This document shows, in pieces, positions 9,625-36,842 of a stretch of DNA of 37,535 nt. Below the pieces are notes generated by a model, which worked only from the letters and a program-made list of their open reading frames with translations, was not told the origin of the DNA and made no database searches. Origin of the DNA: Rhizobium sp. Q54 (GTDB lineage: Bacteria; Pseudomonadota; Alphaproteobacteria; Rhizobiales; Aestuariivirgaceae). Position 1 is the stretch's first letter, and each line of letters starts with the position of its first letter. Made by a program: the position numbers and the translations under genes. The stretch spans positions 1 through 37,535 of the forward strand of contig CAMDBX010000034.1 in assembly GCA_945889445.1 (NCBI GenBank). The letters are read 5' to 3'.

Positions 9625-11790
9625 CTAAGACAGGGGAAGTTCCGAGGTGAATGCCCGCAGTACATTTGTGGTGACACATGCCACGTCGTTGGTGAAGCCG
9701 TTCCAGGCAAGCGCTCCGCAATAGGTCATTGAACCGACGGAGAATACGGCGCCTCTATTGCCTGTCGTGAAATAAACCATGTCGGCGCGGATCTTTTGCG
9801 GCTTCTGCTGGCCACCCTGTTCGGGCAAGGTGAGCGTCTGTTCCTCGATAACGAGCTGGTATTCGTTGCCGAGCGGGGTCGAGGAGGCCAGCACATGCGC
9901 ATGCACGGGGCTGCCCAACGAAACATCGTAACGGTCAACCTCATCTCCAGCGGCACCGCCGAGGACATGACCGTAATCTCCGATCAACCGGCTATCGACA
10001 CCTTTGAAGAAAGCGGCACCCGGAACTTCATAGCTGGCAGCGAGCCTCTCGTAGCCGCTGCCCTTCGACCATCCTTCGGATGAGAAGCCGACGCCCACCG
10101 TTGCATGGGGACCGCGCCCGCGTGTCTTCCATATGCCGCCCTGCTCGAGGCTGGCGACATGGGTGCGTTCGCCGTAAGGCGCATCCCAACAGCGCGTGCC
10201 GGAATTGTCTCGCCGCACCTCGATGATCCAGGGCCGCTCCGGATCATGGCTTGTGACCCAGTAGAAGCCATTTCCGCCCAGATACATGAGCCGCCCACCT
10301 ACCTGCAGATAGCAATCGAGCACCGAAAGGCCGTTCCGCGTCCAGTATTCCGGGTGTGAGCCGGTGACAATCACCTTATACTTGCTGAGCAGTTCCATTC
10401 CCTCACGGTGCAGTTCCTCGTCCGTTGCCACATGGAAGGCCATGCCGCTGCGCTCCAGCCACTCGACGATGTAAAGATCCTGCGGAAAGTTCCGGTAGGA
10501 ACCCGTCAGCCAGTTCGGATAGCCGGGCCGCACATTGAGCATGGGGCGCCGCCTGCTGGAGTAGCGCACCGGCGTCCCATCGGAATGCGTGTCATAGCAG
10601 GAGCGCCCGAATGCAGGCTCAGAGAACAGCAGCTTCTCGTCATCCGGCACAACCATCTCGTGGGTCATGACCTGCGAATAGTCGAGCGAGGCGAGATGGT
10701 CGTTGGCATAGGCGAGGTACGTATTGGTCGATGCCAGGAACAGAACCGGTGCGGTATCATCGCGAGCACCCAGCACGAAGAGCGGATAATGCTCGACATC
10801 CTCTCCGCCAGAGAGCCTCACAGCATAGACACCGCTCCGGAGCGTGGCAGGCAGCGTGAACTCGAGATCGTAGCTCCAACCGGAATCGACCATGTCGTCT
10901 TCGTGGAACTGAAGCGCGCAGTATTGCTCCGGTGTTTCGATAAAGGAGTCGCTGCTGCCGTCCCAGTTGCGGCCGGTCACGCCGCGCTCCACGCCGTTGA
11001 CGAGTTCACCATCAGCGAGTGCTGGAATGCACGGCCGCACGGCGCGCGAAGACCAGTCACCGCCAATCAGCCATTCGGCGAGAGGCGATGCGGGACGTTC
11101 GCCCTCCTCATGAAGTGCCAGGCACTGCGCCGGCGAGAGCAGACCCCGGTACAATACTGGAGTGTCGATTTTCCCATTGTAACAGTTGATGGCCCGCCGA
11201 CGCTCATCAGGGCCCACTGATGCGAGCATGAGCGACTGGAGCCGCCCGATCGCCGCACCCTGCCCCACGGTCGTGTCCCGACGTTTCTCCGGGTGAAATT
11301 GTAGCGACATTACGTCGAGTGCGGAATCCTGGCCGCCTACGGCGGCGGCCACCGAATACCAGCGGCGCGGCGCCACCGGCATAACCGATGATACCAGCAC
11401 GCCATCGGCCAGCAACTGAAGCCGCCCGCCGGACAGCACGAGTTCGACGCGGCCCGAGGCGTGGTTGAGCGCCCAAATGGTCTGCACACCTTTGGCAGGA
11501 AGCGTGGGCCATATGAAGCAGTGAACGGTGACGCCTTCGCGCGGATCGAGGTTTTCGAGCGGGAGTTGCGCGTAGGAGCCGACCGGGCTGTCCTGCAGGC
11601 GGCCGCTCGCGCGCGTGGCGGGCACCTCCGACACCGGCTCGGTGCCCACATGGGATTGACCCGCTGCACCAGGCCCTGTGGTGAGCCGAACCAGCTCTGC
11701 CGTCACCTCGGTGAGCGGCGTGCTGATCGCCATGCGCACAGACTCGCCGGGCCGGCGCGACCATTCCTCGAAATAAGCAAATATCTTCAT
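9625..11790 (-). CDS. N,N-dimethylformamidase large-subunit homologue (DmfA2-like), no small-subunit gene seen
   Basis: A 721-residue protein matching the large subunit of N,N-dimethylformamidase, which hydrolyses DMF to dimethylamine and formate. The N-terminus (MKIFAYFEEWSRRPGES) fits the family start. Residues ~85-220 look like a LamG/concanavalin-type beta domain, and ~340-720 form the catalytic part. The mononuclear-iron ligands known for the Paracoccus enzyme (two Tyr and one Glu) align with Tyr358 (STNTYLAY), Tyr399 (GRSCYD) and Glu481 (GSHPEYW); the Tyr-Tyr spacing of 41 is the same, and His479 is kept. The known enzyme is alpha2beta2 with a small subunit encoded upstream. Here the upstream neighbour is a divergent GMC gene, and no small subunit is present nearby. 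The substrate may be another amide. Confidence 0.8.
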   Translation of the reverse strand: MKIFAYFEEWSRRPGESVRMAISTPLTEVTAELVRLTTGPGAAGQSHVGTEPVSEVPATRASGRLQDSPVGSYAQLPLENLDPREGVTVHCFIWPTLPAKGVQTIWALNHASGRVELVLSGGRLQLLADGVLVSSVMPVAPRRWYSVAAAVGGQDSALDVMSLQFHPEKRRDTTVGQGAAIGRLQSLMLASVGPDERRRAINCYNGKIDTPVLYRGLLSPAQCLALHEEGERPASPLAEWLIGGDWSSRAVRPCIPALADGELVNGVERGVTGRNWDGSSDSFIETPEQYCALQFHEDDMVDSGWSYDLEFTLPATLRSGVYAVRLSGGEDVEHYPLFVLGARDDTAPVLFLASTNTYLAYANDHLASLDYSQVMTHEMVVPDDEKLLFSEPAFGRSCYDTHSDGTPVRYSSRRRPMLNVRPGYPNWLTGSYRNFPQDLYIVEWLERSGMAFHVATDEELHREGMELLSKYKVIVTGSHPEYWTRNGLSVLDCYLQVGGRLMYLGGNGFYWVTSHDPERPWIIEVRRDNSGTRCWDAPYGERTHVASLEQGGIWKTRGRGPHATVGVGFSSEGWSKGSGYERLAASYEVPGAAFFKGVDSRLIGDYGHVLGGAAGDEVDRYDVSLGSPVHAHVLASSTPLGNEYQLVIEEQTLTLPEQGGQQKPQKIRADMVYFTTGNRGAVFSVGSMTYCGALAWNGFTNDVACVTTNVLRAFTSELPLS

Positions 11791-15449: not shown

Positions 15450-15748
15450 AATCTAAAATCGTCTATCGGCGCGAGAGCAAATTCTATGATCAGACACAGA
15501 ACATAAGAAGTCTTATCATGACTTTCTACATATTCGGCAAATAAATCGGTTTAATCTTATCGAATTTCTGCCAAATGACCAATGCTCATACTACAAAGTC
15601 GATGTGCAATTAATTTGGGTAAGCGCTGTTGCCGCATTAATAGCGATTGACCCCGGGCAGCGCACTCCGTAGCCTTCAAAATCAAGCTGATGAGGATATG
15701 ATACAATACCTCACGGTGAGGATACGCACAAAGGATAGGAGATTATCC
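15450..15748 (+). promoter_or_regulatory. Upstream region of the Dpp-like operon with an ATAAGA-AG-TCTTAT palindrome
   Basis: This AT-rich stretch precedes the binding-protein gene. A near-perfect palindrome, ATAAGAAGTCTTAT, lies at 15503-15516 (arms of 6, centre of 2), about 230 bases before the start codon. It could be an operator, possibly for a LysR-type regulator. No consensus sigma-70 promoter is convincing. The ribosome binding site AAGGATAGGAGA is at 15731-15742. Confidence 0.3.
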
Positions 15749-17317
15749 ATGCACATCACACGCCGAGACGTATTGAAAGTCACCCTGGGTACAACCGCCC
15801 TGGCCAGCCTTGGGGCAACGCAGCCCTTCCATTCGACAGTCGCACACGCGGCCGACACGAAGTCCATCAAGATCGCTTCGATGGGACCCATCACCGGAAA
15901 CTGGGATCCGACGTCGCACACCACGATCGGTCAGCTGAACGTTGAATCCTGGATCTTCGGGCGCCTCACCAGCTGCCCGATGAAGGAAGACAACCCGAGC
16001 GAGATCCTCCCTGACCTTGCCACGAGTTGGAAGCTAATCGACCCCAACACGCTCGAGTTCGAGTTGCGCAAGGGCGTGAAGTTCCACGACGGCAAGCCCT
16101 TCAGCGCCGAAGACGTGAAGGCGACGATGGAATACGCCTCCGACCCAAGCCGCCCTGCTGCGGCGTGGTACCCTGGCAAGGTGGACGTTGAAATTGTCAA
16201 CGAATACACAGTCCGTCTCAAGACGGATAAGTATGGCTACCCTGCCTCGGCCTTCTGGTTCGTATCGAGCTTCCTGCCGATCCTGTCGGCGAAGGACTTG
16301 GCCGACCCCGCAATGCTGCAGAAGCGGCCGAACGGTACGGGTCCCTACAAGCATGTCTCCACCGAGGGAGACCGCAACACGCTTGCTGCCTATGACGATT
16401 ATCATGGCGGCCGGCCTAAGATCGATGAAATCGTTCACAATTACGTGCCTGATTCAAACACGCGCGTGCTGGGCCTGCTGAACGGGGAATATCACATCGC
16501 CGAACGCCTGGAGCCGGAGCAATACACCTCTCTCGCCTCCAACGCCGACCTGGCGACCTACAAGGGCCTGTCGACGGAGAACAAGTATCTCCACTTCCGC
16601 TGCAACAAGGCTCCCTTCAACGACGAGCGGGTACGCCTCGCTGCCTGCCACGCCATCGACCGCGAGCAGATACTCGCGCTGATGGGCGAGGCCGCCAAGG
16701 CATCGAACTGTTACATCTCGCCGATGAAATACGGCTATATCGATATTCCGAACTATCCGACCTTCAACCCCGAAGAGAGCCAGCGGCTTCTGGCCGAAGC
16801 CGGCTTCCCGAAGGGCGAGGGTCTGCCAGAGCTTGAATACATCACCTCGGTTGGCTTCTATGCCAAGACCAAGGAATATGGTGAGCTCGTAACTGCCATG
16901 CTGCAGGAGCAGGGCTTCAACGTGAAGCTCACCGTTCTCGAGCCGGCGGCATGGGAACAGGCCATCTACCGCCAGAAGGACGGCCAGGGCCCAGGCCACA
17001 TGTGCGACGTGGGCTGGCTCACCGGTTCGCCGGAGCCCGACCTCGTACTGCGTCCCAACTTCCACTCCGCGGCCGCCCTCATCAATGGAATCAACGATCC
17101 CGAGATCGATGCCGCCCTCGACAAAGAGCGCAACACCGCCGACCCGGCGGAGCGCCTCAAGGTCCTGCAGACGGAGACGTTCCCGACGATCGCAAAGAAG
17201 GCACCGAGCTTCTCCCTGTTCTCTGCCGTCAACTTCCACGGCATGAGCAAGAAGGTCCAGGGCGCCTACTTCTTCCCGAACGGGCCGATCGACCTGCGCA
17301 ACGCAGATCTCGGTTAG
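15749..17317 (+). CDS. Dpp/Opp-type ABC transporter substrate-binding protein (SBP family 5)
   Basis: A 522-residue periplasmic binding protein for peptides or other small organic ligands. ATG 15749 is preferred over the longer open frame (from 15647) because it follows AAGGATAGGAGA and directly encodes a Tat-type signal (TRRDVLKVTLG) with likely cleavage near VAHAAD (about residue 35). The SBP_bac_5 signature is visible as LEFELRKGVKFHDGKPFSAEDVK. It is the first gene of a four-gene operon with two permeases and a fused double ATPase. A GC-rich hairpin follows its stop codon. SBP family 5 also covers nickel, opines, glutathione and other ligands, so the ligand is undetermined. Confidence 0.88.
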   Translation: MHITRRDVLKVTLGTTALASLGATQPFHSTVAHAADTKSIKIASMGPITGNWDPTSHTTIGQLNVESWIFGRLTSCPMKEDNPSEILPDLATSWKLIDPNTLEFELRKGVKFHDGKPFSAEDVKATMEYASDPSRPAAAWYPGKVDVEIVNEYTVRLKTDKYGYPASAFWFVSSFLPILSAKDLADPAMLQKRPNGTGPYKHVSTEGDRNTLAAYDDYHGGRPKIDEIVHNYVPDSNTRVLGLLNGEYHIAERLEPEQYTSLASNADLATYKGLSTENKYLHFRCNKAPFNDERVRLAACHAIDREQILALMGEAAKASNCYISPMKYGYIDIPNYPTFNPEESQRLLAEAGFPKGEGLPELEYITSVGFYAKTKEYGELVTAMLQEQGFNVKLTVLEPAAWEQAIYRQKDGQGPGHMCDVGWLTGSPEPDLVLRPNFHSAAALINGINDPEIDAALDKERNTADPAERLKVLQTETFPTIAKKAPSFSLFSAVNFHGMSKKVQGAYFFPNGPIDLRNADLG

Positions 17318-17422: not shown

Positions 17423-18409
17423 ATGTTTGCCCTGAACTTCCTCTTGCGCCGCATCGTTCAGGGCATCGTCATTATCGGCCTGGTCACGCTTCTGATCTTC
17501 ACTCTGCTCCGTGTCGTTCCAGGGGACCCCGTTCGCATCATGTTGGGGCCCATGGTAGCTCCTTCGGTCATGGAGCAGGTCGCCACCGAACTCGGCTTGC
17601 GTGATCCGATACCGGTCCAGTTCGGCCGTTACATGTTGCAGGTCATGAAGGGCGACCTCGGTCACTCCTTCATCCGCAATGCCCAGGGTGGCAGCACCGG
17701 GGGTTCACGCGGCGGCGAAACGTTCGACCTCCAGAACCGCGCCAAGGTATCGGAGTTGATCGCCAACACCATCCCCTACAGCATACTCCTCGCCGCTCTC
17801 GCCATCCTCTTTACAGTGCTCATCTCGTTCCCCCTCGGCTTCGTTGCAGGGGTCTATTCCGGAAAATGGCCCGACCGTTTGTCGCTTTATGTGAGTTCCG
17901 TGCTGGTTTCCCTGCCAAACGTCTGGCTCGGCATTGTCCTGATCCTGCTGCTATCGGCTTGGGGCGGGATCCTGCCCGCGATTGGCTACAACGGGCCAAG
18001 CTATGCGATCCTGCCCGCCTTGGTGCTGGCCATTGAACTTGCCCCAGTTATGATTCGGTCGATAGCTGTGTCCGTCGCCAATAGCCTTCAGGAGAACTAT
18101 GTCTCGGTGGGCGAGGTGCGCGGCATAAAGCGTCGGCGCATGATCACCCATCACGTGTTGCGCAATGCCTCCATTCCGCTCCTGAACCTGTTCGGCATCC
18201 AGGTCATCGGCATGCTGCTCGGCAGCTTGTTCGTGGTCGAATACATCTTCAACTATCCCGGTGTGGGGCTCCTGATGATCAACGCCGTGTTCCAGCGTGA
18301 CTTCCCGATCATTCAGGCCATCGCCATGCTGAGCAGCGCGGTTCTCGTCTGCGTGAACATCCTCGTCGACTTGGCCGCCACCAATATCGACAGAAGGTTG
18401 CAATACTGA
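17423..18409 (+). CDS. Dpp/Opp-type ABC transporter permease (DppB family)
   Basis: A 328-residue inner-membrane permease. ATG 17423 follows an AGAGAGGCACG leader and begins MFALNFLLRRIVQGIVIIG, the usual DppB start with a membrane segment straight after the N-terminus. The longer frame from 17336 crosses the intergenic stem-loop and is rejected. The conserved LLRVVPGDP segment follows TM1; the EAA coupling loop is seen near VRGIKRRRMITHHVLRNA. An insertion-like periplasmic loop (GGSTGGSRGGETFDLQNRAK) is somewhat glycine-rich but within family variation. The stop overlaps the next gene's start by one base (TGATG). Confidence 0.88.
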   Translation: MFALNFLLRRIVQGIVIIGLVTLLIFTLLRVVPGDPVRIMLGPMVAPSVMEQVATELGLRDPIPVQFGRYMLQVMKGDLGHSFIRNAQGGSTGGSRGGETFDLQNRAKVSELIANTIPYSILLAALAILFTVLISFPLGFVAGVYSGKWPDRLSLYVSSVLVSLPNVWLGIVLILLLSAWGGILPAIGYNGPSYAILPALVLAIELAPVMIRSIAVSVANSLQENYVSVGEVRGIKRRRMITHHVLRNASIPLLNLFGIQVIGMLLGSLFVVEYIFNYPGVGLLMINAVFQRDFPIIQAIAMLSSAVLVCVNILVDLAATNIDRRLQY

Positions 18410-19323
18410 TGATCGAGGAGATCGCAAGCGGGCCGGCCGCCATTCCCGCCGCCAAGCGCGGGAGCAGCATCGGAGCGCAGATCCTGGCGCTCGCTTGGCG
18501 CGCGGCGGATTTCAGGATCGGCCTCGCTGTTCTCGCCTTTCTCATCCTCGCCTCGCTGCTGGGCCCGAGCGTATTGGGGCTGTCGGCTACGAAGATGGAC
18601 GTTGCGAACCGCTTTGCTCCTCCGATCTTCCTGGAGGGCGGCACCTGGAAGCACATTCTCGGGACGGACCAATTGGGCCGCGACCTTCTGATCCGCTCGC
18701 TCATCGGGCTCCGCAACGCGCTGCTCATCGGCACGATCAGCACCATTGGCATGTTCATCCTCGGTTCGACCATCGGCCTCGTTGCCGGCTACTTCGGAAA
18801 GACGGTCGACCTCGTCCTGATGCGCATCACTGATGCCCAAATGGCGATCCCGGTGATCATTCTGGCCATCACCATTCTCGGTGTTTCTCGGCCAAACCCC
18901 GTGACCATCATCCTGGTGCTTGTCCTTGCGGGCTGGCCGGCCTATGCGCGCGTGGTGCGCAGCGTGACGATGTCGGAGCGGCGCAAGGAATATGTGCGTG
19001 CCTCAACCATCCTCGGCGCATCGTCGATCCGCGTCATGCTGCAGCAGATCGCACCCAACATTCTTCCACCCGTGGCCTTCGTGGCCCTGCTCGATGTGGC
19101 GCGCATGATGATCTTCGAAGCGATCTTCGGCTTCATCGGCATCGGCATCCAGCCGCCGACGCCCACTTTCGGCACCATCATCGCCGACGGGACGAAATAT
19201 CTCCTCAATGCGTGGTGGATCACCACCATTCCCGGCCTGCTCCTTGCACTCTGCCTCTGCAGCATCAACCTGATGGGCGGCGCACTGGAACGCGCGCGCA
19301 ACACCCTCCTGCGAGGCCAATGA
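18409..19323 (+). CDS. Dpp/Opp-type ABC transporter permease (DppC family)
   Basis: A 304-residue inner-membrane permease, partner of the DppB-like protein. It has the DppC-type N-terminal cytoplasmic tail, a first membrane segment (IGLAVLAFLILASLLGPSVL), then the characteristic LGTDQLGRDLLIRSLIGLRN motif and the EAA loop (YVRASTILGASSIRVMLQQI). It starts at ATG overlapping the previous stop, and its own stop overlaps the ATPase start, so the operon is translationally coupled throughout. Confidence 0.9.
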   Translation: MIEEIASGPAAIPAAKRGSSIGAQILALAWRAADFRIGLAVLAFLILASLLGPSVLGLSATKMDVANRFAPPIFLEGGTWKHILGTDQLGRDLLIRSLIGLRNALLIGTISTIGMFILGSTIGLVAGYFGKTVDLVLMRITDAQMAIPVIILAITILGVSRPNPVTIILVLVLAGWPAYARVVRSVTMSERRKEYVRASTILGASSIRVMLQQIAPNILPPVAFVALLDVARMMIFEAIFGFIGIGIQPPTPTFGTIIADGTKYLLNAWWITTIPGLLLALCLCSINLMGGALERARNTLLRGQ

Positions 19324-21152
19324 TGCAGACCAACCGTTCGGTGCTCAACGTTTCGCAACTCTCCGTCGACATCGAAGGCAGGGAGCGGCGGCGCATCCTG
19401 AACGAGATCTCCTTCACACTGGAGGCCGACACCGTTCTCGGCATCATCGGCCAGAGCGGCTCGGGCAAGACCGTGCTGTCGCGCGCCCTGGTCAACTGGC
19501 TGCGTCCACCGCTCCGGATTTCAGGCGGCTCCATCCTCTTCAAGGGTGTCGACCTTGCGACAGTGAACGAGACCGCCATGCAGCAGCTTCGCGGCCGGGA
19601 GATCGCCTACATCGGCTCCGATCCCGCCAACGCGCTGGACCCCACCCTCCCCATCGGACGGCAGATCGCCGAGAAGCTCATGTCGGTCGAGAACGATCTC
19701 GCGCGAGATGCGGCTGATCGCCGCGTACTCCAGATGCTGGACGCAGTGCGCATCCCGTCCAGTCGCCAGCGGTTCCACGAATTTCCGTTCCAGTTCAGCG
19801 GCGGCATGATGCAGCGTGTGATGATCGTCGACGCGCTCATAACCAACCCCGCATTCCTCGTCGCCGACAATATCACACAACCGCTCGACGTGACGATTGC
19901 GGCCCAGATCCTGCGCTTGCTGAAGGAGCTTCAGCGCGATTTTCGGACCTCCACCGTGTTCGTCTCCAGTGCGTTGGGCGTCGTCGCCGAAATCGCGGAT
20001 CGCGTCATTGTTCTGGCCCATGGGGAGGTCGTCGAGCAACAGGGCATGCACGGCCTTCTCGACAGGCCGACGCATGAATACACGCGGCGGCTCATCAGCG
20101 AGATGCCGAAGATCTGGGGCGAAGAACCGCTGCCCACTGCTGTCGAAACGCCTGCTTCGGAAACGGTTCTGTCTGTACGCGACGTCAGCAAGACTTATTC
20201 GGAGAGGGACCGCAACAGGTTCTTCGTATGGAATCACATCCAGGCAGTAAGAGGTGTCTCCTTCGATGTGTTCCGCGGCGAGAACCTCGGCATCATCGGC
20301 GAGTCGGGATGTGGAAAGTCCACCTTGTCACGCCTCTTGGGCCGCGTGGAGGCGCCGGATACCGGGCAAATCGAATTCCTCGGGAAGGACATCGCGCATA
20401 TGGGCCGCCGGCAACTCCTCGGCCTGCGCAAGAAATTCCAGCTCCTTCTGCAGGACCCGTTCAACGCCATTCCGCCGCACCTGACGATCGGGCGGACCAT
20501 CGCTGAGCCGCTTTACATTCAAGGTGGTACATCTTCAGTGGAAGTCGAGAAGCGCGTCCGGGCCACGATGATCGAGGTGGGGCTTCAGGAGGATCTTTAC
20601 GACTTGCTTCCTGTGGGGCTCAGCGCAGGACAGAGACAACGCGTGAACATCGCCAGGGCCATGGTTCTCGATCCCGAGTTGCTGATCCTCGACGAGACCC
20701 TTTCCGCCCTGGACCAGGTCGAGCAGGCGAAGCTGATCGAACTGTTCGGGGACATACAGAAGCGGCGCGGCATTACCTACATCTACATCTCGCATGATCT
20801 CAGCCTTGTGCGGCGGGTGTGTAACCGGATCGCGGTGATGTATCTTGGCCGCGTGGTCGAACTCGCTTCCAACACCGACATATTCTTCAATCCGCAGCAT
20901 CCCTATACGCGGGCACTTCTTAGCGCCGTGCCAGCCATCGAAGAGCGGCGATACCTCCCCGAGACCTATCTGATGGAGGGAGAACCACCGAGCCCAATTA
21001 ACATACCTGCAGGCTGCAGCTTTCGCTCACGTTGCCCACTTCCAATAGAGATTTGTGCGTCCGTCGATCCAAAGCTGTCGGCTACGCCATCGGATGGTTA
21101 CGCTGCTTGCCACCTGATCACCCCAATTGCGCAATCTACAATCAACTCATGA
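19320..21152 (+). CDS. Fused double ATPase of Dpp/Opp-type transporter (DppD-DppF fusion) with degenerate first domain
   Basis: About 610 residues with two nucleotide-binding domains (numbering from ATG 19323; ATG 19320 adds one Met). NBD1 keeps Walker A GQSGSGKT (43-50), but the Q-loop Gln is Ser99 (YIGSDP), the signature is FSGGM (158-162), the Walker B catalytic Glu is Asn183 (FLVADN), and the switch His is Ser216 (VFVSSA). NBD2 is canonical: Walker A 326-333, Gln377, LSAGQ 433-437, Walker B LLILDE (453-458) and His491. A C-terminal oligopeptide-transporter segment with cysteines (GCSFRSRCPLP) follows. The protein should therefore have one hydrolytic and one non-hydrolytic ATP site. It is the last gene of the operon. 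The long open frame from 19212 is an overlap artefact. Confidence 0.88.
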   Translation: MMQTNRSVLNVSQLSVDIEGRERRRILNEISFTLEADTVLGIIGQSGSGKTVLSRALVNWLRPPLRISGGSILFKGVDLATVNETAMQQLRGREIAYIGSDPANALDPTLPIGRQIAEKLMSVENDLARDAADRRVLQMLDAVRIPSSRQRFHEFPFQFSGGMMQRVMIVDALITNPAFLVADNITQPLDVTIAAQILRLLKELQRDFRTSTVFVSSALGVVAEIADRVIVLAHGEVVEQQGMHGLLDRPTHEYTRRLISEMPKIWGEEPLPTAVETPASETVLSVRDVSKTYSERDRNRFFVWNHIQAVRGVSFDVFRGENLGIIGESGCGKSTLSRLLGRVEAPDTGQIEFLGKDIAHMGRRQLLGLRKKFQLLLQDPFNAIPPHLTIGRTIAEPLYIQGGTSSVEVEKRVRATMIEVGLQEDLYDLLPVGLSAGQRQRVNIARAMVLDPELLILDETLSALDQVEQAKLIELFGDIQKRRGITYIYISHDLSLVRRVCNRIAVMYLGRVVELASNTDIFFNPQHPYTRALLSAVPAIEERRYLPETYLMEGEPPSPINIPAGCSFRSRCPLPIEICASVDPKLSATPSDGYAACHLITPIAQSTINS

Positions 21153-22941: not shown

Positions 22942-23059
22942 ATCTGGTTCAACCCGTGTTTAGCCTTTTTTGGTTCCTCCCCGACAGAACTCTCCATAAG
23001 AATTGGGTAAGGGGCCTTTGGGGTCCGCCCAAAAGAACAATATTTCAGGAGGAGTCGAA

Positions 23060-24646
23060 ATGGATCGTCACCAACAGGGCCTGATCGCCCAGAAACTGCT
23101 GCGGCCGAGCATGACAAAGCGGGAGTTCATGCAGCTCGCGCTTATTTCGGGGGTCAGCATCGGCGTAGCGGACGCAATATTCACCTCCCGGGCGCAGGCT
23201 GAACCTAAGACTGGAGGCTCTATGCATTTCGGCCTGAGCTACGGGGCCACGCAGGACAGCCTCGACCCAGCGACCTGGTCAAACATCATGGGCACGCTGA
23301 TCTTCGGCGCGACGCTCACAGAGATTGACTCTAAGAACGTGGTGCAGCCCAGCCTTGCAGAGTCCTTCGAGGCATCGGAGGGCGCCAAGAGGTGGGTGTT
23401 CAAACTCAAGCGCGGCGTGACCTTCCATAATGGCCGCACCGTATCGGCAGACGACGTGGTGGCATCTTATAATCATCATCGCGGTGAACAGTCAAAATCT
23501 CCCATCAAGTCGGCGCTCGAGCAAATCGCAGACATCAAGGCCGACGGGTCGGAGACCATTGTATTCACGCTGAAATCTGGGAACGCGGATTTCTCCTACA
23601 TCACGTCCGACTATCACCTGCCGATTTTCCCCGCTACCTCAACCGGCGGGATCGAGTGGGAAAAGGGTGTCTCCGCCGGCCCCTTCGTACTCGACAAGTT
23701 CGAGCCTGGCCAGAGCATGAGTGGCAAGCGCTTCAAGGACTACCACAAGAATGGGCGGCCTTATCTTGACGAAGCCCGCATCACGGTGATCCATGACGTC
23801 ACGGCGCGCACCAACGCGCTGCTCACTGGCGAGATCGACTATATGGACCGGTGCGACCTGAAGACGCTCAAGCACCTCTCGGCCGATCCAAACATCGAGA
23901 TCGACAACGTGACGGGTGCTGCGCATTACATCGCTGTCATGAACGTGACGGTGCCGCCCTTCAACGACCCCAACGTCCGCAATGCGATCAAGTATGCAAT
24001 CGACCGCAATGACATTGCCGACAAGATCGCGGCAGGATACGGCACGATCGGCAACGACAACCCCATTTCCCCCACGCTCCGCTATGCCGTTCAGCCCGAA
24101 CCGTTGCACCAGTTCGACCCGGCCAAGGTGAGCGAACTGCTTAAGAAGGCAGGCATGGACTCCCTCAAGGTCGATCTCTCGACATCTGAGACCGCTTTCC
24201 CCGGCGCTGTGGATGCGGCGTTGCTGATGAAGAACAGCGCGGCCAAGGCTGGAATCGAAATCAACGTGACAGTCGAGCCTTCGGACGGCTACTGGGAAAG
24301 CGTCTGGATGAAGAAGCCCTTCGCCATGAGCTACTGGGGCGGGCGCCCGACCTGCGATTGGATGTTCACGATTGCGTACGCCGACGATGCAGCGTGGAAC
24401 GACACATTCTGGAAGAACAAGCGTTTCAACGAACTCCTCGTCCAGGGCAGGTCGGAGACCGACGAGGCAAAGCGGGCGGCGATCTACTCCGAGATGCAGC
24501 AACTCGTTCATGACGATGGCGGGGCCATCGTGCTGATGTTCGCGAACTTCGTCTCGGCCCACACCAAGGGGCTTGCGCATGGAGAGCTGAACTCCAACCT
24601 CGACATGGACGGCGGCCTGATGTTTGAGCGATGGTGGAGAGCCTGA
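23060..24646 (+). CDS. Orphan Dpp/Opp-type substrate-binding protein (SBP family 5)
   Basis: A 528-residue periplasmic binding protein. ATG 23060 is chosen because AGGAGG lies just upstream (23048-23053); the open frame extends to 23003 without a better start. The N-terminus has a Tat-like signal with KREFMQLALISG and likely cleavage near SRAQAEP (about residue 48). The SBP_bac_5 signature is KRWVFKLKRGVTFHNGRTVSADDVV. It has no permease or ATPase of its own: an intrinsic terminator follows and hydrolase genes come next. It may feed the Dpp-like permeases encoded 1.9 kb upstream, widening their ligand range, and its ligand may be the substrate of the CocE hydrolases. Confidence 0.87.
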   Translation: MDRHQQGLIAQKLLRPSMTKREFMQLALISGVSIGVADAIFTSRAQAEPKTGGSMHFGLSYGATQDSLDPATWSNIMGTLIFGATLTEIDSKNVVQPSLAESFEASEGAKRWVFKLKRGVTFHNGRTVSADDVVASYNHHRGEQSKSPIKSALEQIADIKADGSETIVFTLKSGNADFSYITSDYHLPIFPATSTGGIEWEKGVSAGPFVLDKFEPGQSMSGKRFKDYHKNGRPYLDEARITVIHDVTARTNALLTGEIDYMDRCDLKTLKHLSADPNIEIDNVTGAAHYIAVMNVTVPPFNDPNVRNAIKYAIDRNDIADKIAAGYGTIGNDNPISPTLRYAVQPEPLHQFDPAKVSELLKKAGMDSLKVDLSTSETAFPGAVDAALLMKNSAAKAGIEINVTVEPSDGYWESVWMKKPFAMSYWGGRPTCDWMFTIAYADDAAWNDTFWKNKRFNELLVQGRSETDEAKRAAIYSEMQQLVHDDGGAIVLMFANFVSAHTKGLAHGELNSNLDMDGGLMFERWWRA

Positions 24647-24665
24647 TCCTAGACTTGCGTGGCAG

Positions 24666-24693
24666 GGGGCCGGAAGTAATTCGGCCCCTTTTT
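24666..24693 (+). terminator. Intrinsic terminator after the orphan binding-protein gene
   Basis: GGGGCCG at 24666-24672 pairs with CGGCCCC at 24682-24688 over a 9-base loop, followed by TTTTT. It ends only 15 bases before the next start codon, so read-through would be needed for the downstream genes unless they have an unseen promoter. This probably makes more binding protein than hydrolase. Confidence 0.8.
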
Positions 24694-24708
24694 CAGTGAG
24701 ATGCAAAC

Positions 24709-26709
24709 ATGAAGTTCGTCAAAGACTTCCCCCGCCAGGTGCAGGAGATCGAGAACCTATGGATTCCGCTGCCTGACGGAACACGCCTAGCTGCCCGTGC
24801 ATGGATGCCGGTGGACGCGGCGGAGGAGCCCGTGCCGGCCATTCTCGAGATGATCCCCTACCGCAAGCGAGACGGAATGGCCCGGCGGGACGAGATGATG
24901 CACCCCTATTTCGCCGGCCACGGTTATGCGGCCATTCGCATCGACCTGCGGGGCTCTGGCGATTCTGAAGGCCTGCTCGACGACGAATATGCGCCGCAGG
25001 AGCAAGAGGACGGGCTGGCGATCATCGACTGGCTGTCGCGGCAGCGCTGGTGCTCCGGCAATGTAGGCATGATCGGCATCTCCTGGGGCGGCTTCAACAG
25101 CCTGCAGGTCGCGGCCCGCCGGCCGCCGGCGCTCAAGGCGATCGTCTCTGTCGGGTCGACAGATGACCGCTATGCGGACGACGTGCATTTCATGGGCGGC
25201 TGCCTGCTTTCGGCGAAGTTTACCTGGGCGCAGACCCTCTATTCCGACCTGACGCGCCCCCCCGACCCGGCCATAGTAGGGGATAGATGGCAGGACATGT
25301 GGCTCGACCGCTTGCGGAACGAGCCCCAGTTCCTCGCCCGCTGGCTGGAACACCAGACCCGCGATGACTACTGGCGGCACGGCTCGGTGTGCGAGGACTA
25401 TGGCGCCATCGAATGTGCGGTCTTCGCCGTCGGCGGCTGGGCCGACAGCTATTCCAACCCGGTGGCGAGGCTCGTTTCAAACCTCAAGGCCCCGAGTATT
25501 GCTCTGATTGGACCATGGGGCCACGACTATCCGCACACGGCGGTTCCAGGTCCGGCGATCGGTTTCCTCCAGGAGTGCCTGCGCTGGTGGGACCACTGGT
25601 TGAAGGGCAAGGACAGCGGCATCATGCACGAGCCGAAGTTCCGCATCTGGGTGCAGGAGAAGATCGCCCACACACCTGATCATACTGCCCGTCCCGGTCA
25701 CTGGGTAGGTCTCCGGAAATGGCCCGACCAGTTCTCGACCTTTTACCTAGGGCAGAGCGGCCTGTCGTCCGATCCTCAGCCCGCTGAAGTCCTGACACAC
25801 GGTTCGCCGCAGACACTGGGGTCCGCGGCGGGAGAGTGGTGCTCTTATGGCGCATGCGCCGATCAGCCGGCCGACCAGGCGGGGGACGACGGGCGCGCGC
25901 TGGTCTTCGACAGCGCGCCACTTAAGAGCCCGCTGTCGATTCTCGGCACAACATTCCTCGACCTCAGCCTTTCGATAGACCGGCCGCTGGGGTTCCTTGC
26001 CGTGCGACTGGAGGATGTCGACCCCTCCGGCCGTTCGGCCCGGATCAGCTACGGGCTATTGAACATCGCCCACCGCGAGGGCCATGACCGGGTCACGCCG
26101 GCTGTGCCCGGCGAGATGATGCGTGTCCGCGTCAAGCTTTGCGACACGGCATATGTCTTCGCCCCCGGCCACCGCATCCGGGTTGCCGTCTCGACGGCCT
26201 ACTGGCCGACGGTCTGGCCCTCGCCCGAAGCCGTGACGCTCAGCATCGAGACGGCTGGATGCGCGTTGCGCCTTCCGGTTGCCAGCGCGGGCGAGGCAGG
26301 GGCGATCCACTTTACGGAGGCCGAAGCGCCGGCGCCCGTTGCGCGCGCTGTGGTGGAGCCGCCCGAGAACCGACGAGAGCTCCGCCGTAACTATATCACG
26401 GGAGAGGAGATCATGGAGGTCGTGGTCGACGATGGGCTGTTGCGGATAGAGACTCACGGGCTCGCTGTCGGGAGGCGATGCGTTGAGCGCTACGTCATCC
26501 ACCCGGACGATCCACTATCCGCCCTCTGCGAGGCTGACTGGACGATGAGGGTTGAGCGCGGCGACTGGAAGACCCGAACCGAAACCCGTGCCACCATGCG
26601 GGCTGACAAGGACAGCTTCCACATAAGGGTCGGCGTTCAGGCGTTCCTAAACGGCAGTCTCGTCTTTTCCCGGGAGGATGAGCAGAGCATCCCGCGCGAC
26701 GGTATCTAA
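24709..26709 (+). CDS. CocE/NonD-family serine hydrolase (X-Pro dipeptidyl-peptidase S15 type), copy 1
   Basis: A 666-residue alpha/beta hydrolase related to cocaine esterase, X-Pro peptidases and glutaryl-acylases; the family cleaves esters or amides. The catalytic triad is readable: Ser125 (GISWGG), Asp246 (GGWADSY) and His272 (GPWGHDYPH). The N-terminal hydrolase domain (about 20-300) is followed by the jelly-roll PepX_C domain (about 330-560) and a C-terminal extension of ~100 residues. No signal peptide, so probably cytoplasmic. It heads a three-gene run with the MmgE/PrpD-like gene and a paralogue (copy 2), and an intrinsic terminator sits just upstream. The substrate is unknown; ester or amide cleavage of a compound imported by the adjacent transporter is plausible. 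Confidence 0.85.
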   Translation: MKFVKDFPRQVQEIENLWIPLPDGTRLAARAWMPVDAAEEPVPAILEMIPYRKRDGMARRDEMMHPYFAGHGYAAIRIDLRGSGDSEGLLDDEYAPQEQEDGLAIIDWLSRQRWCSGNVGMIGISWGGFNSLQVAARRPPALKAIVSVGSTDDRYADDVHFMGGCLLSAKFTWAQTLYSDLTRPPDPAIVGDRWQDMWLDRLRNEPQFLARWLEHQTRDDYWRHGSVCEDYGAIECAVFAVGGWADSYSNPVARLVSNLKAPSIALIGPWGHDYPHTAVPGPAIGFLQECLRWWDHWLKGKDSGIMHEPKFRIWVQEKIAHTPDHTARPGHWVGLRKWPDQFSTFYLGQSGLSSDPQPAEVLTHGSPQTLGSAAGEWCSYGACADQPADQAGDDGRALVFDSAPLKSPLSILGTTFLDLSLSIDRPLGFLAVRLEDVDPSGRSARISYGLLNIAHREGHDRVTPAVPGEMMRVRVKLCDTAYVFAPGHRIRVAVSTAYWPTVWPSPEAVTLSIETAGCALRLPVASAGEAGAIHFTEAEAPAPVARAVVEPPENRRELRRNYITGEEIMEVVVDDGLLRIETHGLAVGRRCVERYVIHPDDPLSALCEADWTMRVERGDWKTRTETRATMRADKDSFHIRVGVQAFLNGSLVFSREDEQSIPRDGI

Positions 26710-26827
26710 ACTTCACTTTCCACCCCACCCTCGAACTACGAACATTAGAGGTCGCGTGGCGGGTTCAAATATCGGCGCGCGACGCTATGCTGTCGCGGTG
26801 GACTTCATCATTGCCAGGAGGGATACC

Positions 26828-28162
26828 GTGACGACCCAGCTTTTCCATTTTGTCAGCGACACCCGCTTCGATGACATCCCCGATCCGGTGCGGAACATGG
26901 CGCGCCGATGCATTCTCGATCTCACCGGAACGGCAGCCGCTGGCCTCTCCAGCGATCTCTCTCGCATCATCCGTAATATTGCCGTCCGGTCCTTCAATGC
27001 CGGTGACGGCGCCCCTCGAGCCCGCATCATCTTCGACGGACGCACCGCCAGCCCGGCGGGCGCGGCGATGGCGGGGGGCATGACGATTGATAGTTTTGAC
27101 GCGCATGACGGCCATGTCCTGACCAAGGGGCACGCCGGCTGCGCCATCTTCCCGGCCCTGCTGGCCCTTGCCGATAGCACAAGGAACACGATCAGCGGCG
27201 CTGACCTCATGGCCGCGCTGGTCATCGGCTATGAAGTGGCAATCCGCGCCGGCATCGCGCAGCATGCGACGGCGCCCGACTATCATACGTCTGGTGCATG
27301 GAATGCGTTGGGCGTCGTTGCCATGGCGGCCAGACTCCAGGGGCTGGACCAAGAGGCGTTCCGTCAGGCGCTGGGCATTGCGGAGTACCACGGACCGCGC
27401 AGCCAGATGATGCGCTGCATCGACTTCCCCACCATGGTGAAGGATGGATCCGGCTGGGGCGCAATGTGCGGCGTGAGCGCAGCCGAACTAGCGTCCGAGG
27501 GGTTCACGGGCGCCCCCGCGCTGGTTGTCGAGAGCGATTCCGTGCGCGACCTCTGGATCGATCTCGGCACGCGCTGGCGCATCTTGGAAATATACTTCAA
27601 GCCCTATCCGATCTGCCGCTGGGCCCAGCCCGCCGTCGAGGCATCGCTGGTCCTGCGCCAGACCCATGGCGTGACCGCTCCCGACATTGAGGCCATCGAG
27701 GTTGAGACCTTCCATGAAGCGGTGCGGCTCGACCAACACCGGCCGGCGTCCACGGAGGAAGCCCAGTACAGTCTGCCATTCCCGGTAGCAGCTGCGGTGG
27801 TACGCGGGCGTCTGGCGCCGACCGATATTTCGGGCGCCGCCCTGCACGATCCCGAGATCCTGGCGATGAGCGACCGCATCCTACTTCGTGAGGCGGATGA
27901 CCTAAATGCCCGTTTTCCGGCGGAGCGCTTCGCGCGCGTCACCTTTCGGCTGAAGGACGGCCGCGTGCTGCAAAGCGAGACGACTCCGGCGCGGGGAGAT
28001 GCGGAACGCCCGCTCTCCGATCTCGAAATCCTGGAGAAGTTCAAGGCAGTGGCGTCCGAAGCACTGGGGACGCGGGCCGGAGACATCGTGGCCGCGGTAG
28101 ACAAACTGCCTGAAGAGGCATCGAGCCGGACACTGCTCGACCTGCTCCTCAACCATTGCTGA
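26828..28162 (+). CDS. MmgE/PrpD-family protein
   Basis: A 444-residue protein of the MmgE/PrpD superfamily (2-methylcitrate dehydratase, cis-aconitate decarboxylase and iminodisuccinate epimerase folds). Typical segments are CILDLTGTAAAGL near the start, GGMTIDSFDAHDGH (about 78-91), the SGAWNALGVVAMAARLQGLD region, and FKPYPICRWAQPAVEA. GTG 26828 is chosen because AGGAGGG (26816-26822) lies 5 bases upstream; the longer open frame from 26678 overlaps the previous gene. It lies 118 bases after CocE copy 1 and 10 bases before CocE copy 2. Family members do not share one reaction, so a role such as dehydration, decarboxylation or epimerisation of the acid released by the hydrolases is only inference. 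Confidence 0.85.
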   Translation: MTTQLFHFVSDTRFDDIPDPVRNMARRCILDLTGTAAAGLSSDLSRIIRNIAVRSFNAGDGAPRARIIFDGRTASPAGAAMAGGMTIDSFDAHDGHVLTKGHAGCAIFPALLALADSTRNTISGADLMAALVIGYEVAIRAGIAQHATAPDYHTSGAWNALGVVAMAARLQGLDQEAFRQALGIAEYHGPRSQMMRCIDFPTMVKDGSGWGAMCGVSAAELASEGFTGAPALVVESDSVRDLWIDLGTRWRILEIYFKPYPICRWAQPAVEASLVLRQTHGVTAPDIEAIEVETFHEAVRLDQHRPASTEEAQYSLPFPVAAAVVRGRLAPTDISGAALHDPEILAMSDRILLREADDLNARFPAERFARVTFRLKDGRVLQSETTPARGDAERPLSDLEILEKFKAVASEALGTRAGDIVAAVDKLPEEASSRTLLDLLLNHC

Positions 28163-28172
28163 GGCCCTTGTC

Positions 28173-30158
28173 ATGAACGCGCCGCATGTCGAAGAAACAG
28201 TATGGATCGGGCTTTCAGACGGATGCCGCGTGGCAGCCCGCCTCTGGCTGCCGCGCGCCGACACCGAACCGGTGCCGGCGATACTCGAATATCTTCCCTA
28301 TCGCCGTCGCGACCGGCACCGTGGCGACGACGCCGTCCTTCACCCGGCCTTTGCCGCTGAGGGCTACGCCTGCATTCGCGTCGACATGCGGGGCGCTGGC
28401 GACTCCGACGGGCTGATGAACGACGAATATACGCCCGGGGAGTGGAAAGACGCCGTCGAGGTTATTGACTGGATTGCCCGGCAGCCATGGTGTTCCGGTG
28501 CGGTCGGTATGATAGGGCTCTCATGGAGCGGGTTCAATTCACTCCAGATTGCCACTCTGGCGCCGCCTGCGCTGAAGGCCATCGTCACCACCTGCGCCTC
28601 CGATGACCGTTATGGCGACGACATGCACTACATGGGTGGCTGCCTGCTCAACGACAACATCCAGTATGGTTCGACGCTGTTTACCTGGATAGCCACACCC
28701 CCGGACCCCGAGATAGTGGGCGAGCGATGGCGCGACATGTGGCTGAAGCGGCTCGAGACGGTTGAAATTCCACCGGCTGCTCGCTGGATGCAGCATTCCG
28801 ACCGTGACGGCTACTGGAAAAGTGGCTCGGCTTGCGAAAACTATGGGTCCATCAAGGCGGCCGTTCTCGCGGTGGGTGGCTGGGCAGACGGCTATACGAA
28901 CGCCGTGATGCGCCTGCTGTCCGGCCTCACTAGTCCCCGCAAGGGACTTATCGGTCCATGGGGCCATGCTTATCCCCACGTCGCGACACCCGGTCCCGCG
29001 ATTGACTTCATCGCCTATGCCGTGAGGTGGTGGGACCATTGGCTGAAGGGTCGCGATACTGGCATCATGGACGAGCCGATGCTAACCTGCTGGCTGCAGG
29101 AGCATGAGAAGCCGCAGTCCCGTTACGGCGCCCGTAAGGGACGTTGGATCGCGGAAGAGTCCTGGGATAGCCCCAATGTTTCGGTCAGGAAGTTGGGCAT
29201 CAACGCCAATGGCCTTGGTGCCAGGGGCGGGGTGCTCGACATGTCGGTCCGCTCTCCAGCATCGACTGGCCTCGCATCGGGCGAGTGGTGTCCATATGGC
29301 TGGGGCCCCGACATGCCTCTCGACCAAAGGGAGGATGACGGCGCCTCGCTGTGCTTCGACGGCGAAGGGCTGGCTGCACCGCTGCAGATCCTTGGCGGCG
29401 CGCGTGTGCATCTGGTGCTGTCCTGCGATAACGAGGAAGGCATGGTCGCGGTACGGCTCTGTGAGGTAGCGCCCGATGGCACGTCTTCCCGTATCACCTA
29501 TGGGCTTCTAAACCTCCAGCACCGTAGCGGGCATGGGGCGGCGGAGAAACTGGTTCCCGGCCGCCGTTACGAGGTCGAGGTGAAGCTGAAGGACTGCGCC
29601 TATGAGACGCCTACCGGGCATCGCCTGCGCGTGGCGATCTCCACGGCCTACTGGCCTTTGGCCATGCCGGCGGGCGCAGGAACCACGGTGACGCTGCACG
29701 AGGCCAGCCTTGCACTGCCGGTGCGTGGCGCGAAGGGTGCGCGGCCAGCAAGCCTCGGCGAGCCCCACGTACCTCCTGCGCTTGCGACCACTGTGCTCGT
29801 TTTGCCGGAGCGCGGCCGCCTGCGCATGAGTCGTGATCTCAGCGCGGGCATCACGCGCGTCGAGGTCGTGCGGAACCTCGGCGCTGTCAGGATCGAGGAT
29901 GTGGCCCTCGAACTTAAAGCGCTCGGCAGCGAGACCTACGAGATCAAACCAGACGATTCGACAGCTGTAAGGAGTGAGACGACGCGGCTAGCTGAGTTCC
30001 GCCGCACCGGCTGGTGTGCGGCCGTCGAGACGCACTCGGTGCTGACCATGGAAGGTGGAAACTGGAGGCTGAAGGCGCGACTTGAAGCGCGCCATGGCAA
30101 TGAGACGATTTTCGCCCGCGACTGGAACCTGATTATTCCGCGCTCGAGTGCGGAGTGA
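28173..30158 (+). CDS. CocE/NonD-family serine hydrolase, copy 2
   Basis: A 661-residue paralogue of copy 1 with the same architecture and colinear motifs. The triad is Ser117 (GLSWSG), Asp239 (GGWADGY) and His265 (GPWGHAYPH). The two proteins share long near-identical blocks (RYADDVHFMGGCLL versus RYGDDMHYMGGCLL; the ISTAYWP region) but differ clearly elsewhere, so the duplication is old and probably gave different substrate preference. The gene follows the MmgE/PrpD-like gene by 10 bases and is probably cotranscribed. The next downstream DNA is a dead transporter ATPase gene. Confidence 0.85.
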   Translation: MNAPHVEETVWIGLSDGCRVAARLWLPRADTEPVPAILEYLPYRRRDRHRGDDAVLHPAFAAEGYACIRVDMRGAGDSDGLMNDEYTPGEWKDAVEVIDWIARQPWCSGAVGMIGLSWSGFNSLQIATLAPPALKAIVTTCASDDRYGDDMHYMGGCLLNDNIQYGSTLFTWIATPPDPEIVGERWRDMWLKRLETVEIPPAARWMQHSDRDGYWKSGSACENYGSIKAAVLAVGGWADGYTNAVMRLLSGLTSPRKGLIGPWGHAYPHVATPGPAIDFIAYAVRWWDHWLKGRDTGIMDEPMLTCWLQEHEKPQSRYGARKGRWIAEESWDSPNVSVRKLGINANGLGARGGVLDMSVRSPASTGLASGEWCPYGWGPDMPLDQREDDGASLCFDGEGLAAPLQILGGARVHLVLSCDNEEGMVAVRLCEVAPDGTSSRITYGLLNLQHRSGHGAAEKLVPGRRYEVEVKLKDCAYETPTGHRLRVAISTAYWPLAMPAGAGTTVTLHEASLALPVRGAKGARPASLGEPHVPPALATTVLVLPERGRLRMSRDLSAGITRVEVVRNLGAVRIEDVALELKALGSETYEIKPDDSTAVRSETTRLAEFRRTGWCAAVETHSVLTMEGGNWRLKARLEARHGNETIFARDWNLIIPRSSAE

Positions 30159-36203: not shown

Positions 36204-36842
36204 CTACAGAGGAACCTTGGGGCCTCCTGAGGGCTCGGCAAGCCAACATCGGCTGATATGTCCGCCCGCCAGAATAACAGCGGGTGGTGCTTGGGTCGCG
36301 CAGCGCTGAAATGCCCGTGAACAGCGCGTCTGGAATTAACATCCCGAGGAGCGCCTTAGAAGGCTCGGCGTCTCGCCGAGGATGGGCGCTCCGGTGCGAA
36401 GGCGATCCGGGTCGGGATAGGGCTGCGCTGCAATCAAGCCTTCTGCATAAGGATGCGCTGGATGCCCCATCACATCATTGGTGGTGCCAAACTCGACGAT
36501 GCGCCCCATGTACATTATTGCCACCGCATCAGCCACGTGCCGGATGAGCGAGATGTTGTGTGTGAACAGGATATAGGCCATGCAGAACTGGCTCTGTAGA
36601 TTCCGCATGAGATTGAGCACTCCAGCCTGTACCGAAACATCAAGGCCGGCGGTCGGCTTGTCAGCCACAATGAGCTTTGGCGACAAAGAACCGGCTCGCG
36701 CTACGCAAACCCGCCGCGCCTGTCCACCAGAGAGCTCATGAGGATAGCTGTCAGCAAGAGCTGGAGGCAGGCCGACAAGGCTAAGAAGTCTTAGAACTTC
36801 GGCGCCGAGATCCCGCTCTTTCAACCCATTGTACCGGGGCAC
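36204..36842 (-). pseudogene. Truncated peptide/nickel-type ABC ATPase pseudogene (DppD/OppD-like)
   Basis: The frame from 36842 begins at MPRYNGLKERDLGAEVLRLL, with signature ELSGGQARR, Walker B LIVADKPTAGLDVSVQAG and a switch region ILFTHNISLIRHVADAVA. The N-terminal Walker A part is missing: the reading stops at an insertion-sequence fragment. Walker B has Lys in place of the catalytic Glu. A TAA at 36336-36338 interrupts the C-terminal oligopeptide-transporter domain, since homology continues beyond it as FQTRCSRAFQRCATQAPP to TAG at 36204-36206. It was probably part of another peptide-uptake operon before truncation. Confidence 0.75.

Follow-up and report, generated by a model that had tools for sequence, protein, structure and literature searches.

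Can an importer of the peptide type work with only one hydrolytic ATP site? The usual description of type I ATP-binding cassette (ABC) importers, among them those for maltose and for peptides, gives them two consensus ATP sites. The question is raised by a stretch of 37,535 nucleotides from Rhizobium sp. Q54 (assembly GCA_945889445.1, contig CAMDBX010000034.1, positions 1 to 37,535, forward strand; the whole of it is called the window below), in which an Opp/Dpp-type transporter operon contains a gene for a fused ATPase with two nucleotide-binding domains (NBD1 and NBD2). The original prediction described this protein as a Dpp-type ATPase fusion whose first catalytic site is dead. Its open reading frame (ORF), coordinates, and three substitutions in NBD1 proved real, while we infer the inactivity itself from sequence. 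With a probability of roughly 0.7, the operon would encode a type I importer, dependent on a solute-binding protein (SBP), that hydrolyzes ATP at one site and uses NBD1 as a non-hydrolyzing nucleotide clamp. Slightly less firmly, we regard it as probable that the operon represents an Opp/Dpp subfamily of the Alphaproteobacteria with one hydrolytic site, in which the pattern of TAP, CFTR, and Pdr5 evolved independently and was joined, on the dead side, by a matching change in the coupling helix of the permease.

Loss of catalytic residues from NBD1

When residues are numbered from the ATG at 19320 as M1, the Q-loop Gln, the Walker B Glu, and the switch His of NBD1 are replaced by Ser100, Asn184, and Ser217 (Table 1). 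The numbers first given for them, 99, 183, and 216, were one too low and fit the second ATG, at 19323. The Walker A motif is intact, as had been claimed, and Walker B Asp183 is present as well.

We aligned 38 rows of the family, at about 49% identity or more: the query and 37 loci. Two rows (L039 and L059) are identical, which leaves 37 distinct sequences, and a further one (L087) is a fragment starting just before the NBD1 Walker B and lacking most of NBD1, which leaves 36 distinct NBD1s. Gln, Glu, and His were all missing from each of these 36 (query counted), so that the three substitutions turned out to be conserved together and do not reflect chance. The residues found instead were Ser (24 rows), Ala (11), Asn (1), or Gly (1), with one gap, at the Q position; Asn (37) or Ser (1) at the Walker B Glu position; and Ser (31), Ala (6), or Asn (1) at the switch His position. 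The NBD1 Walker A Lys and Thr/Ser51 were each kept in 37 of the 38 rows (one gap), Walker B Asp183 in all 38, and the Ser-Gly-Gly-Met signature in 37 (one gap). In NBD2, the Lys, Gln, Glu, and His were each present in 38/38 rows. The most deviant row, L084, has Ser and Asn at the NBD1 Glu and His positions, an LTASQ signature, and Gly in place of the NBD2 D-loop Asp. The aromatic residue of the A-loop was found in none of the 36 family NBD1s (6 gaps) but in 18 of 23 DppD-type controls (2 gaps), and family NBD2 carries Tyr there in 37/37 cases.

The pattern recurred well beyond the window. A first scan, of the collection and the window's own genome, gave five more proteins with it, 54 to 66% identical and including a paralogue, C176. 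With a limit of E ≤ 1e-140, 10 of the 69 genomes searched from the same taxonomic family had members, as did 23 of 397 from the order and 5 of 385 from the class. At 1e-130, a sample of 398 genomes from the phylum gave 6 with members, all six from the same class. The samples overlap, and the genome of the window is counted in each of the four. A plasmid search at E ≤ 1e-120 matched 78 records, of which five were read, and the degenerate pattern was present in all five copies: Rhizobium johnstonii 3841 pRL12, Agrobacterium tumefaciens pAspH13-3a, a Mesorhizobium, Paracoccus methylovorus, and Roseateles sp. XES5. The last of these records bears the only betaproteobacterial name, and its title is marked UNVERIFIED_ORG. 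The substitutions are thus neither a local mutation, as the close homologues lack the canonical residues, nor a sequencing error, as independent assemblies and the five plasmid copies share the codons.

The paralogue in the window's own genome (G000:C176:862-2676, locus L010) is 55% identical to the query. It has its own permease C upstream, and its contig stops before permease B.

Canonical relatives and the search for intermediates

In the control set, drawn from canonical loci, the Gln, Glu, His, and signature Gly were present in 23/23 DppD-type and 23/23 DppF-type NBDs. Nine fused relatives at roughly 30 to 42% identity were canonical too; one of these, L011 (the match C85 in the window's own genome), lacks its first residues and is canonical wherever readable. 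When 249 genomes of the order were searched with a lower threshold, no score lay between 635 bits (51% identity) and 423 bits (39%). We fetched 15 (L135 to L149) of the 16 best places below this gap, and all were canonical in both NBDs, at 39 to 43% identity; L141 has stops within its match. No stepwise intermediate was seen among the homologues read, including these 15 of the 16 top-scoring places under the gap in the 249 genomes. Since the family is degenerate throughout, while the controls and the homologues below the gap are canonical, the substitutions occur together. Six of the 15 canonical homologues (L136, L137, L138, L142, L144, and L146) carry FSGGMRQR; FSGGM, which had been listed among the deviations of NBD1, is therefore a normal signature.

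The partner signature and the composite sites

NBD2 had been called canonical. Four of its motifs are so (Walker A, Q-loop, Walker B, and H-loop), but its signature is not, reading LSAGQ in place of LSGGQ. NBD2 signatures such as LSAGQ and LSTGE occur in the family; their third residue (position 436) is Ala in 25 rows, Thr in 13, and never Gly, while Gly was found there in 46/46 control NBDs and in 15/15 homologues just below the family. By the standard head-to-tail pairing of NBDs, the degenerate motifs of NBD1 would face this degenerate signature and the canonical motifs of NBD2 the normal FSGGM of NBD1. Because the NBD2 signature faces the dead NBD1 site in this arrangement, one whole composite site would be degenerate and the other complete.

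The four Cys residues behind NBD2 have much the same spacing as the E. coli DppF ligands of [4Fe-4S], with 6, 7, and 18 residues here versus 6, 7, and 17 in DppF. The DppF ligand positions are known, and a motif of this type occurs in several, though not all, solved Opp/Dpp members (PMC12136057). The four Cys were kept in 37/38 rows and are missing only from the truncated L066. After NBD1, no Cys motif of the [4Fe-4S] type was found; it stands after NBD2 only.

Two further observations concern individual positions and rows. At NBD1 residue 187 (19878-19880), in the D-loop before Pro/Ala-Leu-Asp, Gln is found in 38/38 family rows, and the 23 DppD-type controls have Thr (21), Ala (1), or Ser (1); by standard geometry, this residue should touch the NBD2 active site. 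One homologue (L066/L105) is ended by an in-frame TAG at about 525 residues, without the iron-sulphur Cys motif.

Table 1. Positions of the operon genes and of the ATPase and permease residues discussed, in coordinates of the window
Feature	Position	Strand	Remarks
SBP, SBP_bac_5	15647..17317	+	First gene of the operon; true start may be further downstream
Permease B, DppB-like, BPD_transp_1	17423..18409	+	ATG at 17423 preferred; listed ORF from 17336
Permease B Arg233	18119..18121	+	Counted from 17423; at coupling-helix position of E. coli DppB Lys243
Permease C, DppC-like, BPD_transp_1	18409..19323	+	Pfam
Fused Opp/Dpp-type ATPase	19320..21152	+	610 residues plus stop, no internal stops
NBD1 A-loop position, Ile18	19371..19373	+	Non-aromatic; alignment uncertain in loop
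NBD1 Walker A GQSGSGKT, residues 44-51	19449..19472	+	Intact; Lys50
NBD1 Q-loop position, Ser100	19617..19619	+	In place of Gln
NBD1 Lys119	19674..19676	+	Beside Glu118, near expected permease coupling-helix contact
NBD1 signature FSGGM, residues 159-163	19794..19808	+	Normal; expected to complete NBD2 active site
NBD1 Walker B VADN, residues 181-184	19869..19871 (Asn184 codon)	+	Asn184 at catalytic Glu position; Asp183 kept
NBD1 switch (H-loop) position, Ser217	19968..19970	+	In place of His
NBD2 Walker A GESGCGKS, residues 327-334	20298..20321	+	Canonical
NBD2 Q-loop Gln378	20451..20453	+	Canonical
NBD2 signature LSAGQ, residues 434-438	20619..20633	+	Degenerate, with Ala436 in place of Gly; should lie opposite NBD1 Walker site
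NBD2 catalytic Glu459	20694..20696	+	Canonical
NBD2 switch His492	20793..20795	+	Canonical
Conserved Cys566, Cys572, Cys579, Cys597	21015..21110	+	After NBD2; spaced like E. coli DppF [4Fe-4S] ligands

The permease side of NBD1

In E. coli, the coupling helix of DppB contacts DppD through a salt bridge between Lys243 and Glu114 (PMC12136057). The correspondence of Lys243 to Arg233 of permease B was read from a HMMER alignment and counted by hand. This position is Arg in 24/24 family permeases (the window and 23 of 24 loci, L109 being cut) and Lys in 14/14 permease B matches among the 24 control loci, so that the coupling helix expected on the dead NBD differs in the family. On the side of NBD1, Glu118 would be the equivalent of DppD Glu114. 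The adjoining Lys119 was found in 36/36 family NBD1s, in 0/23 DppD-type controls, and in 0/15 homologues just below the family. As the change from Lys to Arg keeps the charge, the contact with the permease may persist.

Comparison with known ABC proteins

The canonical Opp/Dpp systems (DppABCDF and OppBCDF of E. coli, OppABCD and DppABCD of Mycobacterium tuberculosis) likewise comprise an SBP, two BPD permeases, and DppD-type plus DppF-type NBDs, and the M. tuberculosis OppD and DppD are fused as here. Unlike the family NBD1, the M. tuberculosis fused proteins (8j5q and 8wd9) have Gln, Glu, and His in both NBDs; the entries 8j5s and 8wdb, where Asp or Gln replaces this Glu, look like engineered mutants. 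The family lacks the two consensus ATP sites of the solved Opp/Dpp members, which makes it a variant subfamily of these importers and not a typical member. An AlphaFold model built on a five-row alignment (mean predicted local distance difference test score [pLDDT], 74.8; predicted template modeling score [pTM], 0.59) shows two NBD folds, both mostly at pLDDT 70 to 90, with a low-scoring linker and tail. The seven best Foldseek matches were M. tuberculosis proteins, the fused OppD and DppD; the nearest solved relatives are peptide importers.

The pattern seen here resembles that of TAP (ABCB2/B3), CFTR (ABCC7), MRP1 (ABCC1), and yeast Pdr5, in which the NBD1 Glu is likewise replaced (by Asn in Pdr5 and by Ser in CFTR), the NBD2 signature altered, and site 2 canonical; according to the same review, every degenerate site encoded in the human genome has a changed NBD2 signature, and loss of the Glu is frequently accompanied by a change of the H-loop (PMC7756269). 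The likeness to TAP and CFTR is stronger than the original prediction had it, because the partner signature in NBD2 is also degenerate. These proteins, however, are exporters or a channel with another membrane fold, whereas the family has importer permeases and an SBP, and it has lost the Q-loop Gln and the A-loop aromatic residue in addition. The origin of its pattern is presumably independent of the asymmetric exporters and CFTR. Judged by its motifs, the family is one that would work like the asymmetric ABC proteins of the TAP/CFTR/Pdr5 type, not a member of them.

The asymmetry had been presented as well known in exporters and unusual for peptide-type importers. The likeness to TAP and CFTR is apt, but one degenerate site is also described for the type II importers RbsA and NupO, which likewise carry two NBDs in one chain (PMC11466899). 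These form a different importer class, in which the second Walker A is without Lys, while here it is NBD1 that is altered and its Walker A is kept. One-site importers are therefore already known in the RbsA class. We found no published Opp/Dpp importer with a degenerate site in a search of the open-access literature, outside which most subscription papers fall and which is no proof of absence.

Selection and origin of the two halves

The ratio of nonsynonymous to synonymous substitution rates (omega, or dN/dS) was determined by the method of Nei and Gojobori (NG86), which ignores codon bias, for 78 non-independent pairs that were 65 to 99.5% identical. Median omega was 0.30 for NBD1 and 0.22 for NBD2, and no value reached 1 in either half; among the 55 pairs with a synonymous divergence (dS) below 1 in both halves, it was 0.32 and 0.25, respectively. 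Both halves look constrained, NBD1 less so. In quick trees, the NBD1 halves formed one clade and the NBD2 halves another, each with a support of 100 in the Shimodaira-Hasegawa-like approximate likelihood ratio test (SH-aLRT), also when the trait columns were dropped, which fits a single origin. NBD1 grouped with the DppD-type and NBD2 with the DppF-type NBDs; the inner placement was weak, the stems were long, and the tool warned of long branches meeting.

Working model and alternatives

In the reading that we prefer, the composite site made of the NBD1 Walker motifs and the NBD2 signature, from which the Gln, Glu, His, A-loop aromatic, and signature Gly are lost, would not hydrolyze ATP at a useful rate, and hydrolysis would be carried by the complete site made of the NBD2 Walker motifs and the NBD1 signature. 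NBD1 would still bind nucleotide, through the Lys of Walker A and the Asp of Walker B that it retains, and act as a clamp, and the coupling helix of permease B expected to lie on it would have changed along with it. If NBD1 is such a clamp, one ATP would be spent per import cycle.

Several results weigh against this reading. Both sites of E. coli DppABCDF, in DppD and DppF, are able to hydrolyze ATP according to the authors of PMC12136057, and importers of the ordinary type thus manage without a one-site design. Omega was higher for NBD1 than for NBD2 in 70 of the 78 pairs, with maxima of 0.89 (from one pair) versus 0.48, and mean pairwise identity over 666 pairs was 0.54 for NBD1 versus 0.63 for NBD2; from this faster evolution, part of NBD1 may be relaxed. 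The residue at position 118, expected to contact the permease, is Glu in 33 but Gln in 3 of the 36 family NBD1s. With Asn in place of Glu, a site might still hydrolyze ATP slowly, and loss of the A-loop aromatic residue from NBD1 weakens the case for good binding of ATP. Finally, at a pTM of 0.59, the AlphaFold model does not establish the arrangement of NBD1 and NBD2.

The same losses, including an A-loop aromatic residue absent from 36/36 family NBD1s (6 gaps), would suit an NBD1 that binds no nucleotide at all but merely holds permease B and offers its FSGGM to NBD2, with one ATP bound per transporter; the retention of the Ser-Gly-Gly-Met signature, in all rows but the one with a gap, is what such a scaffold would predict. 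A pure scaffold, however, would not need the Walker A Lys, Thr/Ser51, and Walker B Asp183, all of which are kept, and we consider this explanation unlikely, if worth keeping in mind. Conservation of a nucleotide-binding core without catalysis would also be expected if ATP or ADP at NBD1 gated the importer, e.g., by energy state, and not in each cycle, and the changed coupling helix of permease B together with the invariant Lys119 could carry such a signal. Against this regulatory role, which is hard to separate by sequence from the preferred clamp and which we hold to be quite improbable, a Pfam search of the ATPase protein showed no regulatory domain.

Two further explanations were rejected. 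Decay of the gene, or an error of sequencing or assembly, could be suspected from the in-frame TAG that cuts L066, from the single pair with an NBD1 omega of 0.89, and from the broken OppF-type fragment at 36336-36842 of the window. It is contradicted by the presence of the same residues in independent assemblies and plasmids, by an omega below 1 for both NBDs in 78/78 pairs, and by the intact operon, and the claim that the gene is not decayed was thus borne out. An export function would agree with the asymmetric pattern, for which exporters provide the best-described cases (PMC7756269), but the SBP_bac_5 gene and the BPD_transp_1 permeases stand in one operon with the ATPase and the nearest solved relatives import peptides. 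We give neither of these two explanations any appreciable chance.

Should one composite site of the family indeed be dead, the choice between one and two ATP per transport cycle would become testable in an importer with canonical relatives of solved structure. The family would also offer an importer case for why several ABC lineages lose the Walker Glu of NBD1 together with the NBD2 signature, and for how a permease adapts to a dead NBD.

The operon and its neighbors

The ATPase protein matches Pfam ABC_tran in two stretches and oligo_HPY once. Among the Opp/Dpp ATPase models that it matched, the best in NCBIfam was NF008453 (dipeptide ATPase), with a score over the cut-off; because the nickel models nikE and nikD were likewise over their own cut-offs, these models do not settle the substrate. 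Annotations given to family members include dipeptide, oligopeptide/dipeptide, and plain ABC transporter ATP-binding protein. The ATG of the ATPase gene overlaps the stop codon of the upstream permease gene (ATGA), which suggests translational coupling of the two. The operon of SBP, permease B, permease C, and ATPase was complete in 22 of 24 homologous loci, and the other two are cut by contig ends.

We counted neighboring genes at 22 loci with flanks of differing length, the window included; the gene families were labeled from one or two representatives apiece. A phosphotransferase/choline-kinase-like gene was found at 18 loci, an M20 hydrolase at 14, a DeoR regulator at 13, an amidase at 7, an inositol-phosphatase-like gene at 6, and a GMC oxidoreductase at 5, the window among the last. 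On one Agrobacterium plasmid, pAspH13-3a, EutBC lies near the family operon. The loci L115, L119, L130, L131, L134, and similar ones often combine DeoR, the M20 hydrolase, a choline/ethanolamine-kinase-like pair, and the inositol-phosphatase-like gene; in the window, the choline/ethanolamine-kinase cluster was not found. These neighbors suggest, as a lead and not a result, that the substrate of part of the family is amides of ethanolamine or a related aminoalcohol.

Elsewhere in the window, an OppF/DppF-type ATPase fragment of 168 residues (36336-36842, minus strand) is without its Walker A half and has Lys at the Walker B Glu position; unlike the intact fused gene, it is apparently a broken remnant. 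A second SBP_bac_5 gene without adjoining permease genes is followed by two S15/PepX_C-type hydrolases and an MmgE/PrpD protein (23003-30158, plus strand). The window also encodes DMFA2_C (dimethylformamidase-like), DAO/GCV_T, and MTTB (trimethylamine methyltransferase) proteins (9628-11790, 30929-33343, and 33371-34906, all on the minus strand), which perhaps serve the catabolism of methylated amines or amides.

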